Below, in pieces: positions 11,850-46,372 of a stretch of DNA of 48,965 nucleotides. The first letter of the stretch is position 1. Every line of letters begins with the position of its first letter. The position numbers and the translations under genes are program-made. The notes beneath the pieces are model-generated. The model did no database searches. It was given only the letters and a program-made list of their open reading frames with translations, and was not told the origin of the DNA. The stretch comes from Physcia stellaris (taxonomy: Eukaryota; Ascomycota; Lecanoromycetes; Caliciales; Physciaceae): contig JABSSW010000089.1 in NCBI GenBank assembly GCA_018902385.1, forward strand, positions 1 through 48,965, read 5' to 3'.

Positions 11850-12453
11850 ATTGCGACGTTGTTTGAATCGTCTGAATCGAGTCTATTTTATCATATAAAC
11901 AACATGTCATTTGCTGAATCAATATTTGAGCTAGTCATCGTGCAAAGAAAAAGAAAACACGCGTTGATGCAAACGTTTTCATTTCGAAATCGAAAAAAAC
12001 GATCTTTCACTGTATTGAAGCAGCAAAAGTCATTCAAACGTTTGAATTTGATTATACATTTTTTTATTACATTTATTTATCGATCATTTCATTGAATCGC
12101 GTTTGTATGACGTTTTGAAAATTCGTTCAATTGTTTTTGTTTCTTTTGCAATCGATATTCGATTTATTGTTTCATCACATCAATCAAACGATTTATATCA
12201 AAGAAATCAACTGAAATGCGCTGTTATGATGAAATTACGTCAATTGTTATACGCATTTTCGCTGATTCAACATTTTGCAAAAAAATTCAACAATTCAATC
12301 ATTTTGATTTCAAAAAAATGTCAACAATTTATCATTCAATCGCGATCGATATCAAATCGTTGAACGTCATTTGAACGTTGAATTTAGTCAACAAATGTCA
12401 TACAACAACAATGCATCGTGATTTTGAAAAATCGAAAACGTTTTGAACGTTTT
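11850..12453. other. left edge of the island, unassigned AT-rich DNA
   Basis: Composition shifts gradually: CC and CT are still present to about 11830, ApG persists to about 11990, and then the CpR-only pattern is established. I cannot assign this piece to any element. It may be a leaked edge or an older truncated repeat. Confidence 0.5.
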
Positions 12454-12682
12454 TGTTACGAGCATGTCTGACAAATAGATTTGACAAATAGATAGTTGAT
12501 ATGATATGTGATCGAACAACGAATTATGTTCTAATTTCACGTTGAAATTAACGTGATTTAAAATTTGACGTCGCACATTGTTTGCAATTTCAACATTTTG
12601 TATTTATTTGTTTTTGCAAATTTATTGTTTTCGTTTAATTAGTCAATAATACGTTTATTCAAACACGATTCATGATATTACA
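12454..12682 (+). repeat. family 1 LTR (copy A, 5')
   Basis: Starts tgttacgagcatgtctgaca and ends gatattaca. It shares nearly its full length with 33627-33844 and 39286-39535. It still contains some ApG and CpT sites (gag, tag, tct), so it is less mutated than the element interior. Confidence 0.85.
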
Positions 12683-12938
12683 ATAAGTTTTCAATTTTTA
12701 TCGCTCGTCGTGATACGCGAACGCTCAAAAATAAAATTTCAAATCGATTAAATTTTTTTGACGAGACAAACGACGAAAAAGTTCTGCTGATCAAACAAAC
12801 GATCAAAAATTTTTTTTGACGAAACATCTGATGAAAATCGTGAAATAACAAATCGATTTTTCACGCAATCGACGATAAAAGACGAAAATTGATTCGATTG
12901 ATTTTTTTTTTATCACTTTCAATTTTTCATTTTCAGTT

Positions 12939-14600
12939 ATGACTCGAAGTCATCACGAAACAATTTTTTTCGAATTTTTTATTTCGATGAAACAACGTTT
13001 CAAAACGTTACGCGTCAACGTGAATCGCATGTTGCATGAAATTAACGACAACTTTTTTGATGAAAATTTCGTTAATCAATTCAAACGTCGTCGATTTGTA
13101 TCATCGATCGAATTCATAAAAATGAAAAATAAAAAAATCATTCATTTTTGAATATCGTCATCATCGATCAATTGAAATGATGAATCAATCATAAAATCGT
13201 CGACTTTTTAAAGAAATTTGATCGACTACGCATCGATCGTGATAATTATTTGAACGTTTTGACTCAATATCAAAATTTGTACAATATTGTCAACGTCGAT
13301 CGTGACGAATCGATCAATACGAATGTCGAATTAAATGAAATTCGTCGAAAATTGAATATTTTGAAAAACGAATACGAAAAACAACGTGATTTACTTTTGA
13401 TCAAACAAAAAAATTATATTTTTTGAAAAAAAATCACGACGTTTTGTTGATCAAAATTCGCGATCGTGCACGAAATTTTGTTGTCGACGATGAAAAAACG
13501 ACGATGAAATCAACGTAATTAATTTTTTCAAAAACAAACGACGTTTCAAAGCACATTCAAATTCTTTTAAATTCATCGATGAAATAAAATTCATTTGACG
13601 TGTTTGAAAAACAAAAATACACGATAAAATGACGATCAACGTTGATCATTACGACACGAACATGATTGCGATCATTATTGTGATTGATTAAATTGAAAAT
13701 GATGTCGATGATCACATACAATCGATTCGTGACATTGATATAAATCATTTCAAAATTTGACATATGATGTTGAAATTTTTGAACATTATTTACGAAAATT
13801 TTGATTTCAAACGCAATATGCGTAATCAATTTCGAACATTGATCATGAATATTCAAAATTTTCAATTTTTTTATTTCATTTTTTTTCGTTTTAGCAATTG
13901 ATTGATTATAACGAAGTCATCAAAATCGAGAAATTAATGAACAAAATTTTCTAAAATTTGAAAAACGATGAATGTATATTCACGTGAATTTATCACGTTC
14001 GATGAAATTCGAATCATTTTGCAACAAATATACAATCGACAATCGAATTTTCGAAAAAAAAAATCGCGACACGTCAACAACGTTTTGAATTGTTTCAATT
14101 CAAATCAATTTTTGTCGTTTCGATTTCGATGTTTTTTACGAAATTTGCTATTTCGATTTTTTTCGTGAAATTTGTCGTTCATTTTCATTTCAACGTTGAA
14201 ATCAAAATTCGTGATTCGATGACAAACAAATTGATCGTCACGAACAAATGTTTCACATGCGATGAAATCGATCACGTATGAAAAGAAATGTTCGAACGTT
14301 TACAAATATCAAAAAACGTCATTGACACAAAATACAAATGTTTTACATGAATATGATTAACGAGTCGAGCGAATTTGATTCAAAAAATTGATAATTCACA
14401 TCAAAAACGCGATTGATGAATGTTTAAAAATTTTTTTTACTCATCATGACGAATTGTTTGACTTTTTTGTCAAACGATTTTTAATTATCAATTGTACGTT
14501 GTCATTCAACGATAATAAACATAAATTAAAAATTTTAATAAACATTGATGCAATTGATTATGTTTTTATTGATAAAAAATTGCGCAATTTGTATTAACAT
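12939..14600 (+). pseudogene. gag and protease relic, family 1 copy A
   Basis: Fragmented frames carry a gag-like start (12939) and, near 14255-14290, the zinc-knuckle residue pattern CFTCDEIDHV followed by TGA. A protease block at about 14535-14570 reads LINIDAIDYVFID where the family has a DSGATG-type active site. The Gly-to-Asp and Thr-to-Ile changes are those expected from G to A after a purine and C to T before a pyrimidine. Most of gag is unrecognisable. Confidence 0.6.
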
Positions 14601-15523
14601 GTTGAACATGAATTTCGTATTTTTATTAAAATCGAAATTCATTATCGAATTCGACGATCGTCAAATTTTTCAATAATTCATGTCATTTATTTCAAATTGA
14701 CAATTGATTTGCATTTCGAGTTGACAATTTTTTTGTTTATCATCGATTTGAGCAATCATTCGATAATTTTAAAAAATCGTGAATGAACAAACATGAAATT
14801 ATTTTGAATATAATTTACGATAAATTGATTTTCAAATCGTTTCGATGTAATCATCATGATAATATATTCATCAAATCGATTGCAAATTCGACGTTTGAAA
14901 ATTTTTGATTCAAATCGTCGATGAAACGTATTTAATTGACGTCGCGATGTTTTTTATCGAAAACAAATAACGCGAAACATATTGTTGCAATAGAATTTCG
15001 ATATACGATTTTATTTCGTTCGCAATTTAGTTTTTCAACGTTTTATGTACAGAACGAGTCAAACGTATTCGATTCAAAATGTTTCGATTGCTTTATTCAT
15101 TCGAAAATCGATCAAAATGACGAATCGTTCGTCGTTCAATCAAATCATTCAAAAATTGATATCACAGCGATTACGAAAACGACATTCGTCAAAAAAAAAA
15201 ATTTGAAAAACAACGCAATAAACGTTGAAAAATCAAAAACAACAATTCGAAATTTTTCATTTTCGAAATGAATTCAAACGATTCGATGAATATCGCGATA
15301 ATTGATGCGATTTTTTTTGTTTATTCGTCGATTTCAAAAATCGAAAACAAAAAATGCAATGCTTTTTCATTATGATCAATCAAATCGATTTCGCACTCAA
15401 AACATTGCGAACGAATTTTGAATCGTTGAAAATTGTCGTCATGATCAAGAAAATTTTGAAACACGAACAAATCAAATCGATTCTTGAACGTATAATGAAA
15501 AAATATCGAAATATTTCAAACAT

Positions 15524-16260
15524 TTGTTAAAAGTATTCGATTTTCAAAAAATCATTGAATTGTCGTCGCATCGAATTTACGATCATAAAATCGAATTTTT
15601 AAACGATAACAATACATTGTTTCGAAGTCGAATATATTTTTTGTTCGAATTCAAATTTCAAAAATTCAAAAAATATTTGAAAAATAATTTTCAAAAAAAT
15701 TTCATTGTATTCAATCAAACAACATACGTTTCGTTCGTTTTATTTGCAATCAAATCAAATGATCAATTACGTTTGTGTGTGAATTATCGACGATTTAATC
15801 ATATCACGAAACGCAATCGATATTTTATTTTTTTGATCGAAAAAATTTTAATTAGAATGCAAAATTGCAAATATTTGATCAAATTGAATATCATATCGAT
15901 TTTCAACAAATTTCGAATGAGTGAAAAAAATGAAAAACTCATCATATTCGTTATTTTCATGAAATCGTACAAATATTGAATATTATTTTTCGAATTGATC
16001 AACGAATTCGCGAATTGACAACATTACATTTAACGATTTGTTGTTCAACTTTTTGAACGATTTCTGTCAAATTTATTTAAATGATATTTTCATTTACAGC
16101 AAATTCAAAAAAAAACATATCGTTCACGTTCGTAAAATGCTGAAAAAATTCAAAAAAATCGAATTACAAATGAATATTGAAAAATGCGAATTTTTCAAAA
16201 AGAAATGACATTTTTGAGCGTCATATTATCGATGAATGATTTTCGCATAAATTCGAAAAA
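15524..16260 (+). pseudogene. reverse transcriptase relic, family 1 copy A
   Basis: LRLCVNYRRFNHITKRNRY at about 15765-15825 is the Ty3 RT fingers/palm block. FCQIYLNDIFIYS near 16065-16105 is the catalytic block, with YLND in place of YLDD. HIVHVRKMLKKFKK and LQMNIEKCEF follow. Conserved Gln and His codons (CAA, CAT) survive, while Pro, Gly, Ala and Trp codons have changed to Phe, Asp, Val and TGA. Confidence 0.85.
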
Positions 16261-16459
16261 AATAAAAATCATTGTCAATTGAAAACGTTTTACAAATTTG
16301 AAAAAAATGCAAATTTTCGTGAATTTCGTCAATTTTTACAAACGATTCATTCGTGACTTTTCGAAAAAAATTCGAATTTTCATTCGAATGATTAAAAAAT
16401 TCGTGAATTTCGAATGAATTGTTGAAATCGAAAAAATTTTCAATTTTTTCAAAAAAACG

Positions 16460-16930
16460 ATGATCGAAATTTTCATATTACGACATTACGATCGAATCAA
16501 ACAAATCATTTTAAAAATTGATTTTTTTGATTACGTCAATGCGAAAATATTGTTTCAATACGACGACGAAAAAGTTTTGCATTTCGTTGTTTTTTATAGT
16601 CGCAACATGATTTCAATCGAATGCAATTACGAAATTTATAACAAAAAATTGTTGATCATTATTCGTTGTTTAAAACATTGACGTTTTGAATTTAAAAACA
16701 TTGAAAAATCGATCAAAATTTTCATCGATCACAAAAATTTAAAAATTTTCATGACGTCAAAAAAATTAATTTTTCGTCAAATTCGTTGAACAGAAATTCT
16801 TTCGAAATTCAATATTGTCATTCAATTTCAATTCGAAATTCAAAACGTTAAAACAAATGTTTTGATTCGTATGTTTGATTCACGATCAAAAAACGATATT
16901 GACAAACGACATAAATATCGAAAACAAATA
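16460..16930 (+). pseudogene. RNase H relic, family 1 copy A
   Basis: LFQYDDEKVLHFVVFYSRN and ECNYEIYNKKLLIIIRCLKH match the Ty3 RNase H domain. The frame is closed at 16679-16681 by TGA in the conserved HW position and again at 16787-16789 in the conserved QxRWxExL position, 108 bases later in the same frame. Both are Trp codons turned to TGA. The relic stops at the family 2 junction. Confidence 0.88.
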
Positions 16931-16932
16931 TT

Positions 16933-17106
16933 TGTTAAATGTTATCGACGATTTGATCTGCTTGATTTGAATGTCTGTTCGCTGAAATGATTAACTTCAT
17001 CGAAAAAAACGAAAAGAGTTTCTTTCTCACATGTAATTAAGATTTATAAGTCGAAATTTCTCGATAGTTTCTAATGCATCTTTTTTACACATTTCTGTTT
17101 TCAACA
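16933..17106 (+). repeat. family 2 LTR, left
   Basis: About 174 bp, matching 32685-32870 over its length. It retains more CpT/ApG sites (gatctgcttg, aaagagtttctttctc) than the right copy (gatttgtttg, aaaaaaatttcttttt), so the two LTRs were mutated to different degrees. Confidence 0.75.
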
Positions 17107-17538
17107 TATGATAACATCATCGTTACAATCAATCGTCACTTTGCATCATTGATTGCATTTGACAATCATCATACAGAATATTCTGTTGATTTAATTTGCT
17201 TGTTTTTATTTTATCAAAGTTTTCGTGCTTTCGCAATCTTGTTACTCGATGATTTTTTCATCTCATTTTTTTCGATCGATTTTTCATCAATAATCATTGT
17301 TTGAGTATTTCTTTCTGTCTGTTTTTCAATTCTGTCTGTGTAGTCGATTTGTGAAAGCTTTTCAAAAAATTTCTCACATTTTGAAAATTTTTCACATCTC
17401 ATTATTCTGACTAAAAAGACAATTTCAGACATTTTTCATTAGTCGACATTTTGATTTTTGTTTTTAGTGAAATTATTGACTTGCGTGATCATTTCACGAA
17501 TTTTGACAAATCGATCACGAATTTATTTTTTTGCTCAA
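17107..17538 (+). other. family 2 leader segment left of the nested insertion
   Basis: Partly mutated AT-rich DNA with no recognised coding. It ends in ctcaa (17534-17538), the left half of the family 3 target-site duplication; the sequence resumes after 25092. Confidence 0.55.
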
Positions 17539-17735
17539 TGTAAAAATGTAAACGCTGCGTGACTAGAATGTGCGAATAATAATATTAATTGTTATAATAA
17601 ATGCTAAACACATAGTAGAACTAATTGCTAAAAAAAAAAAAAAAGTTCGTGAAATTTCGAATATATAAAGCGCGAAATGCGACAGTTAAATTCAAAACGT
17701 TTTAGCGTTCGCTTGATCGATTTCGTCTCATTACA
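17539..17735 (-). repeat. family 3 LTR, left (3' LTR)
   Basis: 197 bp, tgtaaaaatg...cattaca. It differs from its partner mainly at CpT/ApG positions, each copy keeping some sites the other has lost. Confidence 0.92.
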
Positions 17736-20100
17736 ATTGTTTTTTTTGAATGATCGATTTTTCGCGTCAATTATCAATGTTTTTATAGCATATCAGAAAT
17801 GTATCGCAACAACGTTGTTTTGTAAATAACTTTGTGCTTTTGACGTGTAGTTTTGAAAAATTGTAATTCAATAGATAAAAGTAACAATAACAATGTAATG
17901 CAATTTCAAATATCGCGCTCGTGTTGTGAAGTCGAGTCGAAATGAATCGCGTCGTGTGTTGATGAATGTTTATTTCAATTTTTCAATTCATTTTTTGAAT
18001 TTTTTTTTTTAGCATTTTTATTTCATAATATAGTAAATATCTCGTTTGATTTTTTTTGTTTTTGCGATAACAACAATTATTGCGACAATGATGTCAACAT
18101 GATATATCGCTGTTTGTAAAGTTATTACATCGTTTTTGCAAATGATGATGTTGTCGCAATGATGTTTCAATGACGACGAAATTGATTTTCGAACGTCGAC
18201 AATGCAATGCGTGTGTTAACGATACAACAAATCATGATTTCATTTTTTTTTTCGTCGTTGTTTGTTACGTTTCGCAAAAACACGCAATTTGTTGTTTTTG
18301 TTGTAAATGTATTGTAAATAACGATGACGTTGCTGACTCAATGTTAAATTGATAAATTTTTTTCATTTGAGCAATTGAATGAGAACACGACAATTCAAAT
18401 GTTTTTTCGCGTGACAATCGCGAACGCACGTTGTTAAAATTTAATAAACAAACACGCACAATTGTTTCGAATCAATGTTAATGTATAACAGAATCAATTC
18501 ATTTATGATGTCGGAATCGTCGTTGCGTTCGAAAATTTCGCATAAATTTTAAACACGTTTGCGAAATTTCGAAAAGTAACAAACGCGTCAAATGTCAGTT
18601 TTGTAGCAAAAATTCGCATTATTGCGAGAAAAACATGATTTTTTCGCAATTTCAAATTATTGTTCGCGTTTTTGCTGTTCAAAATAACGTTCAAAACAAA
18701 TTGAAAACAACTTTGAAATTTTGAAAAAATAATAGCATGCAAATTTTGTGCGTAACGTGATTAACATGACGCAAAAACAAATCGAAAAAATTCGTTGTTT
18801 TTTGTTTTTATCGCGTTTCGCAAAATTGTTGCAACAATTACATCAAAATTTGTCACAAAAAACGATTTTTTGTTCGTTGTTTTTTCGTTTTCGTTTGTTT
18901 TTGCGTTTGCTCGAAAGCAAATCAAAATTTTTTTGTTTCGTTTGTTGATTTTGATTTTGATTTTGATTCGCTTCGCGTTGTCTTTTTTCGATTTTTTTCG
19001 TTTTCGATTCGTTTGCGTTTGTTTTCGATTTCGTTTCGTTTGCGTCGCAAACAAATTCGTTTGTTGTCGCGTTTGTTTTTGCGTTTGTTTTCGCGCAACA
19101 AAATCGCGTAATACATGATAAACAACGTTTGATTAAACGCGACGACAATTAACATGAAAAATCGAAATCGATTTGATTGTTGTGATTTGAATTTTGATTG
19201 ATAAGTTTATCGACGTGTTGACGTACATTTTCGTGTTTTTTTTGAATTTATTAAATCGCATATCATATTGATTTTGTTTGTTTTTGTGTTTGTTTGCGTT
19301 GAGATGCTGATGTTTCTTGATTTTTTGTTGTGACGTGTTGTTCTGTGATTTGTTTGTTAAAATTTACGAATTTCATATATTTTTATAGCATTGAAATGTA
19401 TGCAGATTGCAACAATCAAAATCAAGAACAATTTACAATATCATTTTATTGTTTGTGTTTTCGCGTCGCAATTATTGTTATTTTTGCTTTTTAAATCGTT
19501 CACGTTTTTTCAGTTTTAAAAACTGACGTGTTTGTTTTTTGTTGAAAATTTTTCGCTCGATTTCGTTTTGAATTTGTTTGTTTTTCGACGTTTCGCAATT
19601 TTTTCAAATTTGCGTAATTCGCGCGCATTTTCGAATTTGACAATTGCGTTTTCGCATTTTCGAAATGTTTAAATTGATTTTCACGAGTTTTCATATGACG
19701 ATGAGTTTATTTATGCAATAAAATATTCAAATTGATTTTTTTTTTTAATGCGTTTGTTTAGCATTTGCGATATTTTTCATTTTTTTTTCGTTTTTTATTA
19801 ATATTGATTGCGATTTTGAATTTGCGTCGTCACGACTATATCAAAATTCGAATAAAAAACATGAAACACAAAATGTATAATTCATATTGTTTAAACAAAT
19901 CAAATTCGTAAATTTGCGTATTTATTTTTTGACAATTTCAAAAAAATTCAATTGTTTATGATCAATTTTTTTTTTTTTTGAAACGCAATGTGCGTATATT
20001 GATTTCACGTAACAACATTTTTTTTCAAATTCAAAATTTTTCATTATATGATTTTCATTATAATATTTGATTTGCTGTTCGAAAATCGTTTTCACAATTT
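17736..20100 (-). other. 3' part of family 3 without recognised domain
   Basis: About 2.3 kb between the integrase relic and the 3' LTR. It includes low-complexity tracts (18890-19090, repeated ttttgattttgattttgatt and cgtttgttttt runs) that open long frames on both strands. I see no domain. It may be a poorly preserved integrase C-terminus plus a non-coding tail, or another small insertion. Confidence 0.4.
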
Positions 20101-20102
20101 CA

Positions 20103-20801
20103 TTAAATGCGCTCGATTGTTTCGCAACGTTTTTGTTTTGTTTGTTGCAAATGTTGTTTTTTTTTTTGAAAATTGTTCACAAAATCGCTGTTTAAAATCG
20201 CAACGTATTCAAACAAAAATTTTTGAAAAATTTGATCAATGTTTGAATGTTTGCTGTTATTGTAAACAAATTGTGTCATGAATAACAATTTTGATCAATT
20301 ATTTTGTTTGAAATTGCAATACACACGCAAATAATGTTCGAACACAACATTTTGTTTTTTTGTTTGTTTATTTGTTTGTGAATGAAAAACAATGCTAAAT
20401 TTACGTTTCGTTTTCAAATTTTAGCACAAAATAAATCAGAAATTGTTTGTGAAAAAAAATTTTCGATTCGAAATAATGCTACGCATCATTTCATGACGAC
20501 ATACGAATTCTCGTCATAACAAATTCGCAAAATTTATCGCGTTTAACGTTTTTGTGATTGTTATGTACGTTGCGTATTTCGTCAATTTGTTTATCAATAT
20601 TAATATTGAATCGTTAATCTTTTTCGTATAAAGATTTTTAACAAAAAACATATTTGTAATGAAATTCATGATAATTGTATCAAATGATTGTTTTTCATTT
20701 GATGAAATTGCTATCATATCGTCATAAAATTTATGTCGATGAATTCGCATTCGTTGACAATTTGAACAAATGCGTACATAATTTGTTATTTTTTTAATCA
20801 T
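20103..20801 (-). pseudogene. integrase relic, family 3
   Basis: On the minus strand, from 20801, NYVRICSNCQRMRIHRHK is the zinc-binding end of the integrase, followed by the core start (TIIMNFITNMF and, further on, NDSILILINKLTKYATYI). The block FVYNNSKHSNI near 20265 is the late integrase core. Gln and His residues survive; Pro, Gly and Trp positions do not. Confidence 0.85.
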
Positions 20802-21086
20802 GTTAAATCAAAAGTATTTGCGTCGCACAGCATTTTCGATTTTTGTTCGCGCAAAATGTTCAACATTTGAATCGTCATGATTCATACGAAAAATTTTTTG
20901 TTTTGTAGCGAAATTTTCAAACACATAAATTGCGAAATCACGACGAAACAATTCATTTTTTTCAACATTTTATTTCGAAAATTCGTTTTGTTTGTTTGCG
21001 TATTTTTGACGTCATTGCTTTTCAACAACAAAAACGTTTTTTTGTTGTAGTTTGAAATAATCGTCATGTCATTGATTTTCGCAATT

Positions 21087-22898
21087 TCAAATAAAATTTT
21101 TCGATTTCATAATTTGATGAACTAAAAGTCGAAATGCGACAATGTTTAAAATTTTGCAAACACATTTATCGAAAACTTTTTCATTCGAAACAATATTTCG
21201 AATATTTGTCGTAACAATGTTACGCAATCGCGTTGTCGATGTTGCAAATTTGATTGAAACAAACACACGTTGATCGTTTTGCAAATCAAATTGATAATTT
21301 TGATTGCGAAATTTGTTTCGCAAAATAGACAAAAATTTATCGTTGTTTTTGTCGTTATCGTTCGATTTTATAAAATCAGATTTTTTCGACGACGCGTTCG
21401 CAAAATTCAATTTGTTTTTGCGATATTTTATATTGAAATCAAACGCAATTAGCTTTTCAATTTAGCGAATTTGTTTCGCATTGAGTTTTTTGATTGTCAT
21501 AAAATATCGAAAATTGTTGTAATCAAAAATAACGCGAATGAAATGTTTGCTATTTTGCAAATAATGTTTTCAATTTTTGAAATCAAACATTATCGCATAC
21601 AATTTTTTGTCATGCGTATTTCAATTAATTTTTGTTTTTTTGAATTTGTAATTGAAAAACGCAATGAAATGTCATTGATCGTTTTTGTTTTTTGATTGAA
21701 CACATCATTTGTTTCGCGATTAGAAACATCAGTTTTTATGCGTAATTTCGTTTTTCAATCATAGTGCGTAAAAATAAAAGCAATCGTGAATTTAATTTTG
21801 AATTCGTTGAACGCAATTTTAGTTTTCTTTGTCATAACAAATGAAAAACGATTTTTTTTTTTTTTCGTATCACGCGTTAAATTCGTAAATGATGTTACGA
21901 TTTGCGAAAATTTTTAACAAAACGTCTATAAAATTCAGCAAAATTTAAAAAAATTATGATATTTTTCGCATTTTCGAATTCAAATCAATCGACGATTGCG
22001 TTTATACGCGAACGTTTTATTTGAATATCATTGCGTTCAACAACGAAATTTAGAAAATTGATTTTTTTTTTTTGTTGAATTCGCATTTTTTCAGTTTGAC
22101 ATACAAACGATAACGTAACAACGTTTTAAGCATCAAACGAACATGTTTTCAATGTTGTTGTTCATTTTCAAAGTAAATCAGCATATCATTCAGATACATC
22201 ACGCAGAAAACGTCAATGTATGATTTTAATGTTTCATTAACATAAGATTGAAAAATAACAAAAACGTTAACAAAATCGAAAAACATAATTTGATATTCGT
22301 ATTGTTCATAACGAGTACGAAAAGCAATTTTTCACTCATTTTTTTGACGAATACGAATTTTATGATACGCATTTCGAATGTTTATTTTGATGAAATGTTT
22401 AGCATTCGCGAAACGTTTTAACGTCTCAAACAATAGCGACAATGAATAATTGTTTTTGATCGTGATTTCATTGAGTTTTCGATAATTCACACATAAACGC
22501 AAATTGTCATTTGATTTTTTGACAAACAACACAGATGTTTTCGCAAATACGTTGAAAAAACGAATTCATTTTTTCGTCAACGCGTTTTCGAAATAATTGC
22601 GTATAACAGTAAATTCGTCATGTGACATATTGTATATAAATTCAAAACGCGATTTTTTGTTTGATTGCAAGTCAATAATATGTTCGATTTGATCATGTGT
22701 ATTCAAATTGTTCGACAACGTTTTGAAAAATATTTCGATTATTTTTTTGATAACATCAAAAATGTGATCGTTGCGATTCATTTGTAACGCATCACAACGA
22801 ACAACATTTCGTTTTCGATATTGATAATTTTGTGTTAAAAAAAACATTTGATATGACATTGCGACATAAACACGATCACGATTCGCAATGACAATCAT
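21087..22898 (-). pseudogene. reverse transcriptase/RNase H relic, family 3
   Basis: From 22898 the pre-RT block ends FIYNMSHDEFTVIRNYFENA. LRLCVNYRKLNEITIKNNY follows. TGA at 22334-22332 replaces Trp in the family motif E-W-K. The following palm motif, in the same frame, reads MFFDFVNVFVIFQ where active elements have a Pro, Gly, Ala and Thr rich version. The catalytic box is YLND. The linker to integrase is at 21410-21087. Confidence 0.88.
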
Positions 22899-23068
22899 AA
22901 TTAAATCAACGAATTTTTTCGCAAAGCAAAAATTGATTGAAATTTGTTTGAGTTTTTATAATTATTATCACGATATAATCAACGACGATCATGTCAACGA
23001 ATGTCAAAATCGACAACATTCAATCATGAATATTCAAAAATCATGTCGTATTCACGCATGTCAATCGT

Positions 23069-24738: not shown

Positions 24739-24890
24739 AAAAAAATTGCTTGATAAAATGATGTTTGATTGTGATGCAATCGATACGATCGCACGATCAC
24801 GAGTTTGCGAACGAATTTCGCGACGACGAAACGCATTTGTTGAATTGAATATTTTTAATCGAACAATTCTTGATGTAAAGCAATTAGAAT

Positions 24891-25087: not shown

Positions 25088-25092
25088 TTCAA

Positions 25093-33844: not shown

Positions 33845-36169
33845 ATAAATTTTTTATTTTTACGTCGTGATTACTCGAAACGTTCAAAAAATAATTTTCA
33901 AATCGAATCAAATTTTTCGTTTGAAAAACAAACGACGAATTTTTTTTGACGAAACAAACGACGAAAATTATATAATTACAAATCGAATTTACGATCAAAC
34001 GACGAAATTTCGACGATAAAAAACGACAAAAAACGACGACGTTTTTTTTTTTTTTTTCGAAATGATTCGAAATCGTTGATACAATGCAAATTCAATTTTT
34101 TGCGTCAAAATTTGAATTCGACAAATGCGACAAAACGTTGAAAAAACGAAATTTCAAAAAATCGTCGAAAAATTCACGATTCGTTACAAGTTTCGTCAAT
34201 TTTTTTTACGTCAAACGTTGTGTCGAATCAAAACGACGATGTCAGTTTTTGAACATAAAATCGTTCGTCAATTGAAAATAAATTCGAATTTTGAACGTAT
34301 TTAACGAAAATGCAACGTACGTGATCGTTTTAAAAAAATTTATCAATTCGTCAAAATTTACAAATTTAAAAAAACAAAATGAACGAAACATGAAATATTT
34401 TCGAAAAAAAACGCGACAAATTTAAAACGATAAATTGATTTTTAAATCGTTCAAATGCAATATCACGACAATATATTCAATCAAACAATACAAATTCGTC
34501 GTTTAAAAATTTTCAAATCAAATCGTCGATGAAAAAATGTATTTAATTGACGTTACGATTTATCAAAATTATCGCAAAAAAATAATACAAAACACATAAC
34601 GACGATAAAATTTCGATATATCATTTTTTATTACGTTTCAAAATCAACGTTCATTATTTTTTATTGTTGAAAACGAATTCGATATATTCGATTCGAAATG
34701 TTTCGAATGTTCAATTCAAAAAATCGAAAACGACGACGAATCGTCAACAATCGAATCAAATAATTCAAAAATTGATATTACGACGATTACGAAAACGACA
34801 TTCGTCAAAAAAATTTGAAAAATCAACGCAATAAACGATGAAAAACGAAAAACAACAATCAAAATTTTCGTTATTTTCAAATTATTTTTTCAAAATATCG
34901 AATGATTTTTGACGATTCAAAAATCGAAAACAAAAATATCAATGTTTTTTCATTACGATCAATCAAATCGAAATTTCAAAACATTTTTTTTTGTTTCGTT
35001 AAAAATTGTCGATAATCAAAAAATTTTGAAACATGAAAAATCAAAACGATATTCGAACGTTTTTGAAAAAATGTTAAAATATTTTCATCATTTATCAAAA
35101 ATATTCGATTTTCAAAAATTATCAAATTATTTTTTGATAAACATACGATCAAAAATCGAATTTTGAACGATAACAATGTTTTTTTATTTCGATAAAAATG
35201 TTTATTAAACGATTTTTTATTCGAATTCAAATTAAAAAAATTCAAAAAATTTTAAAAAAAATTTCAAAAAAAAATTATTGAACATTTAATCAAATCGATA
35301 TTTGCAATCAAATTCAATTTTTACGTTTTGATTGAAAATTATCGATTGATTCGAATCGTTAAAACGTTATTCAAAATAATTACATTTCGAGATAATTTCA
35401 AATTTCGATAAATTTTATTACACAAATTTTAAAAAATCGTAAAAGATTAATTATCGAAATTTTTCAAAACATAAAAATTTGAAATTTTTTCAAATTAAAT
35501 TTTCAATCAAACGATACAAATTCGATTTTTTTTCATGAAAACGAATTCGATAAAATTCTTTTTTTTTTTATCAAAAAAAATTTCGAAAACGACGATTATC
35601 GTTTGACAAAACATTTTCAAAATCATTATTTTTAATATGAATTTCGATATATTCGATTAATATTTTCAATCAAAAAATTCGAAAACGACGACGAAATGAC
35701 GTTTCAACAAACGATTTTTAAAAATTCGAAAACGACGTTCGTCAAAAAAAAATTAAAAACAAAAAAAATTTGAAAAACGAAATCAAAATTCGTTCAATTA
35801 ATTTTGACGATTTTCAAAATTGAATTAAGAATAAAATGATTGATGCAATTTTGTTTGAATGCTCGAAATCGAAAAAATTCAATGTTTTGCAAAAAAAATT
35901 TATCGTGAAAATTTTCAAAATTCGAAAAAAACAAAACTCGATATTTGAAAAATGAAAAAAAAAAAATTTTTTCAAAAATTTCGATTTTCAAAAAAATTTC
36001 AAATTATTTTTTTAAATTTACGAAAATTTTAATGATAACAATTTTTGATTTCGAAGAAATGTATTTTTTGAAAACGAATTTGAAAAAAACTGTAATGATC
36101 GTAAAAAAAAAAAAAATATCGTCGATTTGTTTTTTGACTTATGAAAATTTGTTGTCTTGAATAAATATT

Positions 36170-36616
36170 GTATCGAGAAATATCACGAAACGTAATCGAT
36201 ATTTTATTTTTTTGATTGAAAAAACTTTGATCAAAATTCAAAATTGCAAATATTTGATCAAATTGAATATTATATCAATTTTCAATAAATTTCGAATGAA
36301 TGAAAAAAAATGAAAATTCATCACGTTTGTTATTTTTATGAAATCGTATAAATATCGAATATTATTTTTTGAATTAATCAACGATTTTGCAAATTGACAA
36401 CATTACATGAATGATTTTTTGTTCAATTTTTTGAACGAATTTTGTCAAATTTATTTGAATGACATATTTATTTACAACAAATTCAAAAAAAAACATATCG
36501 TGCACGTTCGAACAATATTGAAAAAATTCAAAAAAATCGATTTACAAATGAATATTGAAAAATGCGAATTTTTAAAAAAAAATGATTTTTTTAAACGTTA
36601 TATTTTCGATGAATGA
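36170..36616 (+). pseudogene. reverse transcriptase relic, family 1 copy B
   Basis: ITKRNRYFIFLIEKTLIK at about 36190, then FCQIYLNDIFIYNKF near 36437-36485 and LQMNIEKCEF. The same YLND change as in copy A is present. Confidence 0.85.
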
Positions 36617-36836
36617 TTTTCGCATAAATTCAAAAAAAATACAAATTATCGTTGATTGAACACGATTTATCAATTTCAAAAAAATACAAATTTTCGTGAA
36701 TTTCGTTAATTTTTATCAACGTTTCATTCGTGACTTTTCGAAAAAAATTAAAATTTTCATTCGAATGATCAAAAAATTCGTAAAATTCGAATGAATTACG
36801 AAAACAAAAAAGATTTTCAATTTATTCAAAAAAACG

Positions 36837-37240
36837 ATGATCGAAATTTTTATATTTCGTCATTACGATAAAATCAAACAAATCATTTTAAAAATCGATT
36901 TTTCAAATTACGTCAATGCGAAAATGTTATCGCAATACGATGACGAAAAAATTTTACATTTCGTTGTTTTTTACAATCGAAACATGATTTCAATCGAATG
37001 CAATTACGAAATTTATGACAAAAAATTATTGATTATTATTCGTTGTTTAAAACATTGACGTTCGAAATTCGAAAACATTGAAAAATTTATCAAAATTTTC
37101 ATTGATCACAAAAATTTGAAAATTTTCATGATTTCGAAAAAATTAATTTTTCGTCAAATTCGTTGAACAAAAATTTTATCGAAATTCAATATCGTTATTC
37201 AATTTCAATCAAAAATTTAAAACGTTAAAACAAACGTTTT
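36837..37240 (+). pseudogene. RNase H relic, family 1 copy B
   Basis: YVNAKMLSQYDDEKILHFVV and ECNYEIYDKKLLIIIRCLKH. TGA at 37056-37058 and 37164-37166 occupy the same two Trp positions as in copy A, again 108 bases apart. Confidence 0.88.
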
Positions 37241-37499
37241 GATTCGCATGTCAAATTCACGATTCAAAAACGATAACGACGAACGACATCAATATAAAAA
37301 ACAAATGTTGTTTATTTCGAAACGATTCGAAATTCATGTCGTCGAATTTGACGAATCAATTTACGAACGAATTTTCGTCGTCAACAAAACAAACGACGAT
37401 TGCAAAACATATCGTGAAACATTCAATCAAAATTTCATTTTCGTGAATAAAATCAATTTACGCGATTGTCAAAAAAAAAACGATATTTTATATTACAAA

Positions 37500-38580
37500 A
37501 ATCGATTATGAATGTTCGTCGATGTTTTTTTATTTGTTGATTTTTTCAAAAAAATTCATGAATTTTCAACGTCGAATCATTTTGAATTTAATCGCAATAA
37601 AAAAATTTTTACGTCGTGATTATTATTGATTCAATATGCGCAAAAACAATTCGTCGATACGTACGTAATTGTCACGAATATCAACGAATTAAAATTTTCA
37701 AAAATCGCAAAAACGATTTATTCATTTTTTTGATTATATTTTTGCAACGTTGAATCGATATATCGATGAATTTCATTACGAAATTGTTTGACGTTCACGA
37801 TCATAACGTCATTTGCACGATAATCGACAAATTTAACAAAAAACGTTATTATGCATTTTGCACAACAAAAAACGAAAACACGAATGTTGAAATCACAACG
37901 AAAATATTCATTCAATACGTTTTTCGTATTCACGATTTTTTTTTATAACATTTGATCGAAATTTTCAATTCGTGTTATTCGTATGACAAGTTTTTTGCAA
38001 AATTTTCGACATCAAATGTAAATTTTTCACGATTTTTTATTCAGAAATTGATGATCAAATCGAAAAAATCAATCAAAACATCGAAAAACAATTGCGACAA
38101 TATTGCAATTACATGCAAAACGATTAAAACGATTGATTATTCATGATTAAATTTGTAAACAATAACGCGACTTTTGTATCAATTGAATTATTATCGTTTT
38201 TCGTCAACAAAAATTTTCATTTTCGTATGAATTTTTATCGAATTTTATTTCGTACGTTATTACAAAAAAACGATTGTTGATCGTCAAAACGAAAAATATC
38301 ACGAACACGATGCAAAACATTTTCAATTACGTGCGAAATCACGTCGACGTAATTCAAAAACGCATGACGATTCAAATCAACAAACATCGCAAAATTGTGA
38401 AATACGTCGAAAAAAATTACGTTTTTTTGAATCGACGAAACATCAAAATCGTTAAATCATTTGACAAATTCGATGACAAAAAATTGAATTCGTTCAAAAT
38501 GTTAAAACGTCGAAACAATTTTTATCAATTCGAATTATTTGAAACAATGCGAATTTACGATGTGTTTCATTGTTGATTTT
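37500..38580 (+). pseudogene. integrase relic, family 1 copy B
   Basis: DISMNFITKLFDVHDHNVI with CTIIDKFNKKRYYAFCTT is the integrase core start, preceded by IRRYVRNCHEYQRIK of the zinc-binding module (the second Cys of the knuckle is gone). Later text with MTIQINKHRKIVKYVEKNYV (about 38365-38425) matches the post-core region before the C-terminal domain. Copy A has lost this part. Confidence 0.85.
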
Positions 38581-39285
38581 TTTAAAAATTTTTGTGATTT
38601 TTCGAAAATCAAATCAACGAATCATTCGATTTTGTTATAATCAACGAAAATTTCGAATGAAAAATGAACGATATTTTGAAATTTCGATATCATTACGATC
38701 GTTTTCAATATCGCGTCAATTGATCAAATTGATCGCATGATCGAATTTGATATTACGTCGATAACGATAAGTTCGATAACGTTCGTGACGTGATAAAAAT
38801 GATTATCATCGAAATCATTTCATCGTCGCAAATTCGAAATCATTCAAATTACATTTTTCGTTTTCAAATCGATGATCAAAATTCATTTGCAAATCGTCGT
38901 CGTTTTCGAAAAAAAAATCGTCGTTTTGATTTTCATTGAAATTACATTCGATTAAAATTTGAAAATTTCAAATTCGAATTTGAATTCATTTTGATTTTAT
39001 TCGTTCGTTTCGATTTTTTTTTGACAATTTAAATTTCATTATTATCGTTTCGACGTTGTTTACAATCAAAATTTACGTCGCATAAAAATTGAATCGTGTC
39101 AAAAACATTTTCAAAAATTGTTGTTCGATTTTACTAAATTGTGAATTGATACAACATATTGAAAAAATCAAAAAATAATGATCGTGAAAATTTCGAATTT
39201 TGAATTCGTTCAAAACAATTGACAACGTTTTTGTTTCGAATTAATGACGAATCGTCGAAACGACGTTCGCGAAAAAAAAACTTAA

Positions 39286-39535
39286 TGTTACGAACATGTT
39301 TGACAAATAAATTTGACAAATGTTTAACAAATAAATTTGACAAATAAATAATTAATATGATATAATCGAACAACGAATTATGTTTTAATTTTACGTCGAA
39401 ATTAACGTGATTTGAAATTTGACGTTGTACATTGTTTGCAATTTCAACATTTTGTATTTATTTGTTTTTGCAAATTTATTGTTTTCGTTTATTTAATCAA
39501 TCAATATAATTATACAAACACGATTCATAATAACA
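39286..39535 (+). repeat. family 1 LTR (copy B, 3')
   Basis: Starts tgttacgaacatgtttgaca and ends cataataaca. A short tandem duplication (the ttgacaaataaat motif occurs in extra copies at 39300-39350) makes it longer than the other two LTRs. Confidence 0.87.
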
Positions 39536-42500
39536 AACATTTTTTTTCTTCGAAATTATGTTTGAATATTCATTTCGCATGTTTTTCGAAAAAACATAAA
39601 ACAAAAAAATTAAATTCAAAAAAAAAAACACGTTGAACATTTAATTGAATTATTTCGAATATTGAAAAACAATTTATTCGTGACATAACAACAACAAACG
39701 ATGTACAAAAACGAACACACAAAATCAATGTCATTTATAACGTCGAAAATTACGTGAATTTAAACGAAAAAAACATCAAAATTAAACGAAACAAAAAACT
39801 AAAATGAAAATTTTTCAAATTATTCAAAATTTTAAAAATTATAAAAATCAAATTTATCGTTTAAATTTATTCAAACGTTGACGTATTCATAACGTTTTTC
39901 ATTTTTTTTTTTTGAAAAAATTCAATTTTGAAAAAAAAAACGCGCAAACGTCACAATTTTCTGAATTTTCGTATCAAGTTGAAAATATCGAATTAAACGA
40001 AAACATGAAAATGAAAATCACGAAAAAATTCTATGAAATCGAAATCATTAAAAACAACAAAATTTTCAAAACAAATGAAATTTCAAACAAATTTTACAAC
40101 GAATTCGATTTTTATTATTTAATAAAATGAAAAAAATTATGAAAACGCGATTTGAAAATTTGCATCGTTTGTCAAACATTTTCGAAAAACTTTGCGACAA
40201 TTTCACAACGAAAATTCAAAAAAATTTAATATCAATAAAAAAACAAATCATCGAAAATCACGAAAAAATGAATTGAAATATTTATTACATGTTAACATAT
40301 TTTCGTTTTCAAAAATTTTGTGTATTATTTATTGTTTAAAATTTACGACGCATGAAAAAGTTGAATTGTGTTAAAAATATTTTCAAAAATTGTTGTTCGA
40401 TTTGATCGAACGATAAATCGTTGAATAAAAAATGTGAAATGAAATAAAAAAACAATTTCGAAATTTGAATATTAAATGCGATCGCGACTAAAAACGTTTA
40501 TCGCGTTACACATTTTTTCATAATATCGATGTTGATATTCGAAATAAAAAAAATGAAAAAATGAAAAAATGTTCGAATTCAGAATTTTCTGTCAACAAAT
40601 CAATTGTCAATCATTATATCGAAAATTGTGAATTGTACGAAATCAAACATTCGATCATGAAAACAACAAACAATTGATTCATCAAATTATGTTTTTTTTG
40701 AAACATTCAAAAAAATGTTTTTTCAAATTTTTAACGCAAATTGATTATCGAATTCGAAACAAAATATTTCGAAATGCGAAAATCACGATCATAATGATTT
40801 TTCAAATCGATGCAAAAACAAAACAAACAAAATACGTCAAAATTTTTGTTAACATGTTGATTTCAAAAAATTTCGATGTTTTGAAAAACGTATGTAAAAA
40901 ATAAAAATTCAAAATTTTCGAAAATGCGATTCGCATTTCGTTAAACAATTCGATTATCGAAATTCGAACGATTTCGAAAAAATCAATTTCAATTATTTTA
41001 CAACTCGATCAACGATAAATTCAACAAATTCATATTTTTAGTCGAAATCGATCGAATTCGTACGATTGAACAAATAAAATGTAAATAAAAAAAATTGCAA
41101 AACGTAATTTGTTTTGTAACGATTAATAAATCAATATATTACATTTCAAATTATACATTTTGATGTCAATAATTCATTAAATTATATTATTTCTAGTATG
41201 AATTTTACAATTTTCGTGTTGATTGTAATTTGATTTTTTTCAAAAAAATCGAAATTTTTTAACGACGTCGAAATTTATTTTGTCAAAAATGTCAATTCAT
41301 TTACAATCGATGTTACAAAAAAATTAACGAATTCGATCAATCGAATACGATCACGTTTGCTGAATTTACGAATTCATTTATTTCGTTCAATTCATCATTA
41401 TTCGTTTTAACGTCGATTCGTCAACAAATATTGACATCGAATACGAATTTCGTGATTGAAATTACGTCAAAATCAAAATTTTATTTGTCGTAATCGTCGT
41501 TCAAAAAATTGTTTGAACATCGATGTTAACGTTTCATTTATGAATCGAAATTTTTTCAAAACACAAACATTCAATATTTTCATTCGTATTATGATTTCGT
41601 CATTTCAAATTTTGATTTAAACATTAATCGAAATGAAAATTGAAAATATGTCATATGTAATATTTAAATGTTTGACACAAAAAAAATGATCAAAAATCAC
41701 GTTGTTGTTCAAACGCGAAATTCATTTCGTTGACAATTTGAAAATCAACATGTTTTTAAACAACGACATTATTGAATTCGAAAATTTCGTTATCGACATG
41801 ATTAAAAAACACGCAATGATAAATAATATCGACATAATTATATCATTGAAAATACGCTTTTTCAAATTGACGATTCAACGATTTGTTCATTTCAAAAAAT
41901 TACAATCATTTCGTCACATATCGAAATGAAAATCGTCGTTTATTATGTTGAATTGTCAATTACAAAAAAATTCTGATTTGAATCAACAAAAATGACAATT
42001 TCAATTTCATTTTGTATGTTCATTTCGTTGACGCGTTTATTAAGTTTATTGTTGTACGCAACGATAAAAAAATTTTCAATCATGATTTTTAGAAATTTTC
42101 GACTAAACAAAATATTTGAAATTGATTTTTTCAATGATTTTTATATCGATATCGACGACGAAAATGTTAAATATTTCGTCGTCAAAAAATCAAAATTTAT
42201 TCACAAAAATGATTGATTCAAAAAATTCATTTTCGTTTGCGTTGATTTACGTCGTCGTTGTTGCAATCGATAATAATTTTTCGATTACGTCAATTATTTC
42301 ATCGTCGTTAATTATTTCGTCACAAACATCAATATCGTTTGTAATCATTTTGTCACAAATTTCGATGTCAATTGCTGAATTGCGAAAAATTTTTACAATC
42401 AAAATCAATGATAGCGATTTCGAAAATCTTTTACAAACGTTTTTATTTCGTTGATTTCGAAATCGTTTTGTTTAACGACGTTATGAAAATTTTCAATTTC

Positions 42501-43061
42501 GACGAATTAAATTCATTCGTCAAAATTGTTAAAAAATTCGACGTTTTGACAAAATATCGACTTTGTCGAAATGTCGAAAAAGAATTGAATAAAAATATCA
42601 TTGAAAAATGATTAAAAAAAACGTGTATCAAAAAAAATAAAAATGTATTTTGAATGCAAAAACAAAAATGTATTTTTTGAATGCAAAAAACAAAAAATTG
42701 ATTGACAAAATTTTCGACGATTTGCATTGAATTAATCGAATGTTCTGAATTAATCAATCAACGTCGTTTTTTTTTTTTTGTTTTTGTGTTTGAAAAACGT
42801 TGACGACGAGAAAAAATCGTGTAATTATAAACATTAAAAATTTCAATATCATAACACAATTTGAAAATATTCGTTATCATTGCAAACAAAAATTATAATC
42901 GCAATACGAAATTGCGATTACACATCAATCATTGATTGTTTAATTTTTTATCAATGACAAATTCATTTAAATGATCGACACAAATTTACTGTCGTCAATC
43001 AAAAATCAAAAAAGTTTTAACGTAATTATTATGAATTACAAAAATTCATCGACGTACGTGT
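39536..43061 (+). mobile_element. fragment of a family-2-like Ty3/Gypsy element
   Basis: REIHFVDNLKINMFLNNDII (about 41710-41770) and the following text match the family 2 protease region. The stretch 42880-43060 matches the family 2 RT up to ELQKFIDVR. There the relic is cut off by an LTR-like sequence. No LTR of its own was found. The part 39536-41600 has no recognised domain but may be gag. Confidence 0.65.
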
Positions 43062-43236
43062 TGTTACGAACGTGTTTCGAAAACATTGTTTGTCGCAAAA
43101 TTGAAAAAAACACGTGATTAAAATTTGATTTTCGCAAATTTTACACATCAATTTTCGATTTTCATTTGTACATATTTTTTTTTTAGTTTTAGAATTTTCG
43201 TTTAATGAATATCGACTATCATGCACGATTGTAACA
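43062..43236. repeat. possible solo LTR
   Basis: It begins tgttac and ends gtaaca (6-base inverted ends) and interrupts the RT relic. Only its first dozen bases resemble the family 1 LTR. No target duplication is visible. Confidence 0.35.
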
Positions 43237-43248
43237 TTATTTTAAAAG

Positions 43249-43580
43249 TGTGACGAACGTGCATCGAATTCAACATCTGAAATCAACATCTCGATCAGTC
43301 ATTAGAACTAACATTCTTATCTTATCACATCGAATGTTGAAAAAATCGAAATTCGTTTTGACGCATTTTAACGATCTAATTTTCTACATATGTTTTTACA
43401 GAATTTTCATGTATTTGCTTCTCATTTAGAAATTCTCGTATAATTATATATTAGTATCATATCAATGCATTGACATCTCACATTATTTCTAAGTCATTTT
43501 AATTTTTTCAAGTTGTTCGAAATACGACAAGTTTATTCAATAAACAAAATTTCAATCAAACGCGAAAATCTAAAACGTCA
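43249..43580 (+). repeat. family 5 LTR, mutated copy
   Basis: Starts tgtgacgaacgtgcatcg and ends aaaacgtca. It aligns with 46373-46661 through several ungapped blocks separated by small indels. It keeps a fair number of CpT sites, so mutation here is incomplete. Confidence 0.87.
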
Positions 43581-46372
43581 ACAATCAAATTCTAAACGTG
43601 CAGCGAGAACGAAAAAGTTTTGTTCACGTGAAATCAAAAGTTTTCAAACGATTCGAATTGAAAAACATCGAAATTTATTTCACGCAAATCATTTTCTAGA
43701 AAAAAGCGATTTCGAATGCGAACTTTCACGAAAAATCATTTCGATATTTTAGCAAAACGACGACGAGATCGTACGTTACAAATCAAAACGACGAATTGAC
43801 ATCATTTTCGATCAATAAACGAAAACGACAAATTGTGTAAACGACGTTCGTTTTCATCAAAAATTTTTCATCAAAAATCAACATCAAAAATCAAACATCG
43901 ATTATCAAAATTTTATTTATTACATTTTTAAAAACACGATTCATATCGTTGCTTTTCGCAATCGATAATGATTTTTTTTATTTTTTATTGCAAACGAAAT
44001 CGATTTTTTTTTTTTGCAAGTCAATCATGTTTACTTTTATCAACATTTCTTTTGTGATCATTTTTTCTAAATTTAAGCGCAAGATTTTCAATCAAATTCA
44101 ACAATTAATCAATTTTTTCGAAGAACGATCAAACTATCGTTGATTCATTCAGATTGATAAAAAACATTTTTTTAAATTACGTTTTTTCGGAGAATACAAA
44201 TTACAATTCGAACGATGTTAAATTCGTCGTGAACATTTGCATCATTGAACAATTTCAAATGAATTCGCAAAGATTTTCACAATAATTCAAATGCTAAATC
44301 AATTCAAAATTGATCGTGACGTTGAAATTCAAATCATTTTCGATTGAAATTTTCATGTAAAAAACTATAATTCGTTGCTCAAAGATTTCGAAAAAATTGA
44401 AAAGAACAAACGAATCAATCGAAAGATCGTCAGTTTATAGCATACTCAAACGCGAAAATAAAATCATAAACAAATTCAAATTCAAATTGAAAAGTTCATT
44501 CGAAAAAACAAAATTTACACGACGAAATAAACATTTTTCGTTTGAAAAACAACGTTTACATTTCAAAATGATTTTAAATTCAAAATCGAAACGTTAAATT
44601 AATCAATCGTAATATAAAATTACAAAACGAAATAAATTTTTTAAAAATTCAAGCAACGTCAATCAATTTCAGATTGCTCATCGATAAAAAAAAAAAAAGA
44701 ATGTCAAAATGTCGAATTCTTTCAAATTCAATGAAAATATCTCGAAATTTCTTTTATGAAATTTGAAAACAATTCGATTCAAAAATAAATTCGTTGTCAA
44801 CGTCGATCATTTCGTCGACGAATAAATCAAAACAACGACGTTCATCAATTGAATTGAAAACAAAAATTCGAAAATGTTTTTCGCTAAACGTAATGTCGAT
44901 ATGTTTTTTCAAAACTTTTCAAATGATTTTGATGTTTTATTTCTAATTTACGCAAAAAAGAACAAGAAACGAAACGTACGAAATAAATTCAAAACTTTTA
45001 TCATGCGTATCAATCAACGTTTTTCGAAATTTTTTTCGAAATTTTGTTTGTAACATTCAATCAATTGTTTCATTATTGAAAACAAAATTTGACAGATGAA
45101 TTTCGCGAAAAATTCATTTTTCAATTTCAGCGAATCATTGTTAACAACGACAAATTTAACACGATCGAAAACTTGAAAAAATTAATTGAAAAAATAAATC
45201 AAAAATTTCACAATTTGAAAAATTATCGAAAATCGTCAAATTTGAAATATTCACGAATTATCAATCGATTAATAAAAAAATTGTCAAATTTTTTATTCGC
45301 GTTTTCATTTTCAATTTTCAAAAAATTTTCGATTTCAAAATTGATCGCGCTTAAAAATTTTCAAGCAAAAATAAAACGTCGAAAATTGTTACAAATGCGA
45401 AACGTTCAATTATTTGATCGAAAAATTATTCAAAATCAAAATCGATTGTTTTTTATATTCAAAAATTAAACAAAAAACGTTTTGAAAATCAAAACATAAT
45501 CGATTTTCTGTTTAAAAATCGAATCAATTAAATCAAACTTTCACGAACGATGAATTTTAACGAAATTAGCGACGAATTTTTTCATTCGAACATGAATCGA
45601 AAAACGTTTAAATTTTTCAAAAAAAAAATGTTGTCGATTTCAACAATGTTCAAAAGCATTTAAACGTTCAATAAATTTCAAAACAATTGATAATTAATCA
45701 TTCAATCGACGTTAATTTTCGATAAATACGAACATAACGTGCAAACATTAATTAATACAAATGTCATCAATTGTTTTCATTGATGAAAAATTGCGCAATT
45801 GATTTGTGAAAAATTTCAAATAAATTTTGTAATTTTTTGATTCGAAACGTCAACGAATTTGACGATCGAAAAATTAAATTTATTATTCATGTCATTTATT
45901 TTACAACACAATGCAAAATCATTTTGAATTATTTATTTTCATGTTTATTACGAAAATAAACGTTCATTTTTTTGATTTTTGAATAAATTTTGAATAACAC
46001 GCACGACGTGATTCTAAACATGCAAATCGATAAAATTATTTTTTAAATCAAATCGTCATAAATTTTTCGAAACGTTTAAAAATCTGAAAACGTTTTTTGA
46101 ACATCGACATTCATCAACGAATATTTATTTATCATTTTTCACATCGTTCGAAAAGTCTTCAATATCGATAAATTCGCAAAAAATATACGATTTTGCAAAA
46201 ACGTTCATCGTCGAAAACGATTAAAATTCATTTATTTCGTTTTACAATCGAAAATTACGATGAGAAAAATGAATTTTTTCGACGATCGATGTTAAATTTC
46301 ACATTCTCGATATATCATCAAAAAAAATTGATAAAAAATATTTTTTCGTCAAATTCTTTAAAAAGAAACGAC
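43581..46372 (+). pseudogene. family 5 gag/protease relic
   Basis: Frames at 43513-43752, 44397-44597 and 45089-45469 contain Lys/Arg/Ser-rich gag-like text. The rest is broken. The hypermutated pattern continues up to the base before the right LTR. Confidence 0.55.

Follow-up and report, generated by a model that had tools for sequence, protein, structure and literature searches.

The window, the whole 48,965-nucleotide stretch of Physcia stellaris contig JABSSW010000089.1 analyzed here, contains a hypermutated island with retroelement copies, flanked on one side by unaffected DNA and on the other by a further repeat family. No Rfam families or tRNAs were reported within it. Its features are as follows.

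1..11848, no strand assigned: unaffected flank, GC about 0.50, CpC 27% of CpN
8034-8885, in the unaffected flank: NUDIX-domain ORF
11849..46387, no strand assigned: hypermutated island with CpA and CpG kept, CpC erased and CpT at about 7% of CpN
13552..16921, minus strand: hypermutated Gypsy-type retroelement copy of family A, placed by blastn alignment to the family member L026
20901..22100, no strand assigned: piece of another multi-copy family, containing 21301-21600
22065-22520, minus strand: reverse-transcriptase match RVT_1 (G000:C89:22065-22520) with 2 internal TGA, overlapping the end of 20901..22100
36182..38791, minus strand: older family A copy, linked to the younger one by the direct repeats D1-D3
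46388..48900, no strand assigned: third repeat family, adjoining the island; 95 matches listed, pieces included (query from 46381)

Judged by the positions of CC/GG, the edges of the island are sharp: the final occurrence on its left is at 11848 and the next on its right at 46388, and the interval 11849-46387 holds just three CpC/GpG (18513, 30515 and 44189; both strands counted). Base shuffling of the island core gave an expected CC+GG of 1134.8 on average and 1067 at minimum (50 shuffles). Both strands of 12001-46000 together contain 3 CC, 589 CT, 4173 CA and 4006 CG, versus 1591, 1604, 1525 and 1198 in the flank (1-11800), in agreement with the claim of an earlier, sequence-only reading that the loss affects both strands and is confined to the island. 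The local counts given in that reading were exact (in 21301-21600, C is followed by G 19 times, by A 17 times, by T twice and never by C, and G is preceded by T, C and A 20, 19 and 5 times), and the flank is normal where it said so (10 of 15 C precede C or T in 8041-8100). Its statement that CpC and CpT had both been erased holds almost completely for CpC, but CpT lags, with the 7% of CpN noted above still in place. Eight sampled stretches were normal. Counted per kb across bins of GC content declining from 48% to 32%, CC dropped from 119 to 15 and CT from 134 to 71, and CA went from 140 to 132 and CG from 105 to 122; TpA/ApT was 0.42 in the island and 0.71 in the flank.

Both of the two island pieces tested were multi-copy: a piece of the 13552..16921 copy had 40 long matches among those listed, its own place included, and 20901..22100 had 32 on the same terms, mostly at 93-95% identity. 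Two Gypsy-type families, A and B, were each scored against non-hypermutated copies. In the 20 family A copies scored against one comparator, which include L045 (not hypermutated) and L064 (partial), C had become T at 3199/3547 CpC (90%) and 2965/4009 CpT (74%), versus 157/3568 CpA (4%) and 118/3737 CpG (3%), with the reverse T-to-C change at 111/14315 sites. The 12 family B copies gave 2173/2226 (98%), 2022/2328 (87%), 102/2163 (5%) and 75/2087 (4%), respectively, and 117/8567 for the reverse change. Transversions amounted to 0.000-0.014 per site across these 32 copies, and the 5' base had no visible influence on the C-to-T rate in either family's alignments. CpC was not equally scarce in unmutated copies, making up about 0.22-0.34 of CpN in the comparison copies (L026; L025 from position 501), nor did most changes fall at CpA. 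Both alignments thus support the proposed C-to-T process with a 3'-pyrimidine preference; the "CpY" label is better taken as an order, CpC going first and CpT after it. Some members of these families (L026, L045 and L025) escaped mutation, which was counted against the reading given below. One scan of viral contigs turned up nothing related to the family A protein.

The window's own copies behaved likewise. Relative to L026, the copy at 13552..16921 had changed at 448/462 CpC, 377/416 CpT, 37/445 CpA and 15/420 CpG, with 14/1619 T-to-C changes and 29 transversions. The older copy at 36182..38791 had changed at 337/371, 301/329, 72/337 and 56/350 of these sites, with more background change (58/1218 T-to-C changes and 114 transversions). 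Heavy hits were found on both strands in the copies examined by strand, and copies from many contigs carried the same pattern. The order of loss shows in the least mutated of the hypermutated set, L046, which had lost a fraction of 0.82 of its CpC and 0.45 of its CpT, with 83/94 of the CpC preceding a purine changed. The action was also recent and fast: in L049, 338/388 CpY had changed and 176/181 CpC were lost (97%), yet CpA (4/183), CpG (2/192), T-to-C (1/733) and transversions (0.000) were near zero, indicating a burst rather than slow decay.

One result counted against the reading came from aligning 20 hypermutated copies of family A solely among themselves, with no intact copy as reference: segregating C/T sites were about equally numerous before A (82) and before T (94), with 31 before G. 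This comparison is uninformative on CpC, since none is left in hypermutated copies; in our view CpC has vanished, most CpT sites have become fixed as T, and CpA is being lost slowly. Some heavily mutated copies had lost more CpA than CpG (19/178 versus 8/170 in L075, 13/179 versus 0/170 in L072), so CpA is probably a weak target. Two other accounts of the spectrum were rejected. CpA-type RIP seen late, with its CpA sites exhausted, does not fit the retention of about 95% of CpA relative to non-hypermutated copies. An APOBEC-like change of the second C, turning CC into CT, fits neither the copies, which keep C before A and G, nor the plentiful TCA and TCG and scarce CTA trinucleotides.

A degraded rDNA copy, scored against the Rfam consensus, had changed in the same direction, context and order as the two repeat families (CpC 23/27, CpT 17/33, CpA 0/24, CpG 0/34). 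That its CpT were merely half changed was counted against the reading. Furthermore, 150 scored reverse-transcriptase matches contained 250 TGA, 33 TAA and 3 TAG in-frame stops, and 10 of the 150 were stop-free; the TGA excess fits the conversion of TGG to TGA, the stop expected under CpC targeting. Such conversion of TGG codons would amount to gene damage of another kind.

We consider it very probable that the island is transposable-element DNA under a RIP-type defence of the lichen fungus that acts on CpC and then CpT, leaving CpA and CpG almost untouched; CpC > CpT >> CpA, CpG is the best reading of the target order. Under such a defence, most likely by way of the RIP pathway, repeats would be recognized by homology, presumably in the sexual phase; the target C would be acted on by a cytosine methyltransferase of the RID, DIM-2 or DmtA kind, and deamination would then yield T, with the enzyme's sequence preference departing from that of known RIP. 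Canonical RIP in Neurospora crassa, which depends on RID and DIM-2, likewise changes C to T on both strands of repeats and leaves AT-rich islands, but its order is CpA>CpT>CpG>CpC in the portion of PMC5496416 available to us. RIP in Trichoderma reesei also extends beyond strict CpA, although the order printed there, "CpA~CpG CpT>CpC", again places CpC last, unlike the island. CpT is a known secondary target, its changes being prominent in Tad1 in the available part of the RIPCAL paper, and excerpts of van Wyk et al. describe CpT/ApG as dominant in control-fungi alignments. The RIPCAL excerpts also describe RIP-like processes of variant context in Microbotryum Ty1 and Aspergillus MATE elements, with CpG or TpCpG, or CpG and CpA, as targets; in Physcia, by contrast, CpG is spared and the 5' base is without effect. 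CpC-to-TpT double changes are mentioned in the accessible text on RIP in Monilinia (Sclerotiniaceae) alongside classical CpA-to-TpA, but CpA is spared in the Physcia island. For Rhizoctonia solani AG8, the available text gives CpC as the most closely spaced of four CpN SNP classes (214 bp genome-wide), although sparser in repeats (301 bp), under a section heading that says CpG-biased; these are SNP-based counts, unlike the copy alignments here.

The genome does encode relatives of RID and DIM-2, the enzymes that the earlier reading had named as possible agents. A RID-type methyltransferase gene, ordinary by its motifs, lies on C5 (SPPCQFFSDAHT, EQT motif), and a DIM-2-type gene lies on C3 (ENV motif). 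The odd one is a third, divergent RID/DmtA-like methyltransferase gene on C6, with SPPCQSFSPAQ and EET, in a long-branch clade. The tree holding this clade took in 16 of the 120 proteins first listed, together with the majority of the new entries from a later search; 22 sequences without the motif in the searched form were dropped, including Haloplaca, Oleoguttula and several proteins closely related to the C6 gene (P0137, P0140, P0147 and P0151-P0158), and its deep nodes are weak. It is conceivable, though on balance doubtful, that this third enzyme, neither RID nor DIM-2, is a mutator that arose in the lichen lineage and switched RIP from CpA to CpC/CpT. If so, turnover of enzymes would determine the target context, which could then evolve, and the AT-rich genomes of related lichen fungi would hold RIP invisible to index-based surveys.

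Alternatively, repeats carrying CpY methylation (a MIP-like or CHH-type mark) could have decayed slowly through spontaneous deamination of 5-methylcytosine, without an active mutator. The methyltransferase genes are compatible with this, as is the larger CpA and CpG loss of the older window copy, which accompanies its general divergence. The increase in C-to-T rate that methylation brings by itself is usually about ten-fold. A decay process would run modestly above background and track age, whereas the ratio of CpC loss to other change in L049 is in the hundreds, making this explanation improbable. In favor of slow decay, the low GC of a rust fungus has been attributed to such a process, at CpG, in the accessible portion of PMC12774611. 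Editing of retroelement cDNA or single-stranded DNA by an APOBEC/AID-like cytidine deaminase, a deaminase route having also been raised in the earlier reading, would produce directional C-to-T hypermutation, and a strand-local patch in L046 (3/36 on one strand versus 32/40 on the other) and eight PF00383 matches in the genome could be taken in its favor, although PF00383 covers housekeeping deaminases as well. APOBEC-type editing has a 5'-neighbor preference, the known APOBECs to our knowledge all reading the 5' base, and is strand-specific on cDNA; here the 3' base sets the rule, both strands are heavily hit and an rDNA copy is affected too, so we regard this origin as quite unlikely. Nanopore reads can err at modified bases. 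Such reads went into the published assembly, but it also reports 30-fold Illumina coverage, and an assembly or base-calling artefact would have to recur with the same pattern across many contigs, stop abruptly at normal DNA and leave transversions as rare as they are. Foreign AT-rich DNA, mitochondrial or contaminant, is at odds with retroelements that occur throughout the genome. Artefact and foreign origin together seem to us barely credible.

A RIP-type defence with CpC as its first target would contradict a shared-CpA rule: a 2025 kingdom-wide screen concludes, in the part available to us, that CpA preference is common to RIP-like defences, and the two printed measured orders, as excerpted, put CpC last. 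Such a genome suggests that mutator context can be inverted, and it supplies three candidate enzymes. The RIP composite index, positive when >0 according to the available text of PMC7882544, was <=0 in 67/67 island windows, so a survey based on it would score such islands as RIP-free. In Lecanoromycetes, RIP has been reported, in the sources as far as accessible, from Gyalolechia flavorubescens, Cladonia metacorallifera and C. rangiformis, the last with RID and DIM-2 homologues. It was detected in the first two by CpA/TpA-based indices, which fail on the Physcia island, and "CpC", "CpT" and "dinucleotide" do not occur in the accessible text of the C. rangiformis paper. A further point against the reading is that a multi-copy family right beside the island shows little mutation over 46388-48000: CpC is normal, at 23% of CpN, from 46388 to about 48000, and from 48001 onward CpC is low (8%) and CpT is not (35%).

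Transposable-element DNA in Physcia stellaris has been mutated in a RIP-like way whose context is nearly inverted, CpC > CpT >> CpA, CpG (cytosines classed by 3' neighbour), and this signal is real, strong and clean. Its spectrum and order, its action on both strands, its presence in two retroelement families and an rDNA copy, and its recency are established. The hypermutated island at 11849-46387 retains 3 CpC/GpG (positions 18513, 30515 and 44189); shuffling its bases gives a mean CC+GG of 1134.8. Counted on both strands, the island core (12001-46000) holds 3 CC, 589 CT, 4173 CA and 4006 CG, compared with 1591, 1604, 1525 and 1198 in the left flank (1-11800), and the dinucleotide counts of the sequence-only reading at 21301-21600 and 8041-8100 were reproduced exactly on recount. 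The RIP composite index was <=0 in 67/67 island windows, so an index-based survey would score the island RIP-free. A multi-copy family with normal CpC adjoins the island at 46388-48000, and has either mostly escaped mutation or is new; there is a strong C over G skew in 46381-48000 (479 C, 265 G).

Two Gypsy-type families, A and B, include a non-hypermutated copy, against which C-to-T changes were scored by 3' base. The proposal that CpA is spared held up in both alignments, where changes were not mainly at CpA: in 20 family A copies (including L045, itself not hypermutated, and the partial L064) they affected CpC 3199/3547, CpT 2965/4009, CpA 157/3568 and CpG 118/3737, and in 12 family B copies CpC 2173/2226, CpT 2022/2328, CpA 102/2163 and CpG 75/2087. 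The reverse change, T-to-C, occurred at 111/14315 and 117/8567 sites, respectively. These copies represent 20 of 39 (A) and 12 of 19 (B) other places among the matches listed, and the most decayed copies are under-represented because mostly better-matching ones were taken from selected match lists. Two family A copies lie in the window, with far higher background change in the second:

13552-16921, minus strand: family A copy, changed at CpC 448/462, CpT 377/416, CpA 37/445, CpG 15/420
36182-38791, minus strand: older family A copy, changed at CpC 337/371, CpT 301/329, CpA 72/337, CpG 56/350

A degraded, hypermutated rDNA copy (L077, G000:C41:44700-48300) offers an ancestral base that is independent of every copy in the genome. 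It is the sole genome match to a degenerate 28S motif at up to 2 mismatches, and no second 28S start was found in the assembly by that search; Rfam identifies 28S, 5.8S and parts of 18S within it. Scoring in the Rfam alignments was confined to upper-case consensus positions, the strongly conserved ones, and left out two 28S blocks without such positions, the broken first 18S piece and the later part of the 28S alignment; changes affected CpC 23/27, CpT 17/33, CpA 0/24 and CpG 0/34, with 0 other C/G changes and 3/231 A/U changed. A narrower count gave CpC 13/14, CpT 8/21, CpA 0/14 and CpG 0/17.

The order of loss is visible in L046, which carries the fewest mutations of any hypermutated copy scored; there the changed fraction was 0.82 for CpC and 0.45 for CpT, and CpC followed by a purine was changed at 83/94 sites. 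Likewise, the 48% GC bin holds 119 CC, 134 CT, 140 CA and 105 CG per kb, and the 32% bin 15, 71, 132 and 122, respectively; CA and CG drop as well in the lowest bins. CpA is probably a weak target, because its loss exceeds that of CpG in some heavily mutated copies and because hypermutated copies compared mutually show 82 C/T differences before A, close to the 94 before T (31 before G). The pattern in copy L049 (CpY 338/388, CpA 4/183, CpG 2/192, T-to-C 1/733) looks like a burst rather than slow decay. At ~750-1050 of the family A alignment, L046 is mutated nearly on one strand alone (3/36 on one strand versus 32/40 on the other), hinting at processive, strand-wise action.

This order departs from reported systems. 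RIP in N. crassa follows CpA>CpT>CpG>CpC (PMC5496416) and T. reesei also places CpC last, whereas in Physcia stellaris CpC comes first. Reported targets are CpG or TpCpG in Microbotryum and CpG and CpA for the Aspergillus MATE element, and a kingdom-wide 2025 study describes a shared CpA preference (PMC12543289, section 9). Since CpT is already an accepted strong secondary class in known RIP, the novelty here lies in CpC being first and CpA being spared. For R. solani AG8, where the hypermutation is headed as CpG-biased, CpC SNPs are listed as the most closely packed of the CpN classes. No CpC- or CpY-first RIP, nor RIP in Caliciales, was found in the titles and passages covered, which lay mostly outside subscription journals.

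Mechanistically, repetition of sequence may trigger the mutation, which would occur in the sexual phase, with C-to-T arising via a putative methyltransferase route. A DNA-methylase profile search of the genome returned 4 matches in 3 genes, all candidates for the enzyme that sets the context:

Contig C5: RID-type methyltransferase, EQT motif
Contig C3: DIM-2-type methyltransferase
Contig C6 (L005:3401-5100): third, divergent RID/DmtA-like methyltransferase, motifs SPPCQSFSPAQ and EET

EQT was present in 120/120 of the RID-type homologues listed (of 458). The C6 gene keeps QIGNAVPP at the domain end, with introns probable between its motifs and that end. In the tree it groups in a long-branch clade of 28 sequences (support 1.0), among which Heterodermia aff. 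obscurata alone carries a species name, Heterodermia also being a member of Physciaceae. Heterodermia served as outgroup for Physcia in PMC7513301. The genome contains 8 PF00383 matches.

The published assembly of this lichen-forming fungus spans 46.57 Mb in 184 scaffolds at 43.32% G+C (PMC7513301), in a paper whose main text contains, by word count, zero occurrences of "repeat-induced"; the genome used here comprises 44 Mb in 147 contigs, and the window is the entire contig C89. If gene space is ~49% GC, islands ~26% and the mean as published, roughly a quarter of the genome would be affected. The pattern extends across the genome: among 16 hand-picked, non-random 10-kb stretches, 7 (L013, L018, L020-L024) were largely or partly of island-type composition, 8 were normal, and in L009 low CpC was confined to the first kilobase. 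L009 opens contig C1 with telomere-type CCCTAA repeats with CpC intact (1-100); 14 such repeats fall in its first 500 bases, followed by low-CpC DNA at 501-1000. In-frame stops in 150 scored reverse-transcriptase matches (out of 527 candidates) comprised 250 TGA, 33 TAA and 3 TAG, with 10 matches stop-free; TAG and TAA are the stops expected from CpA-type RIP, and TGG -> TGA corresponds to C-to-T at CpC in the complementary strand.
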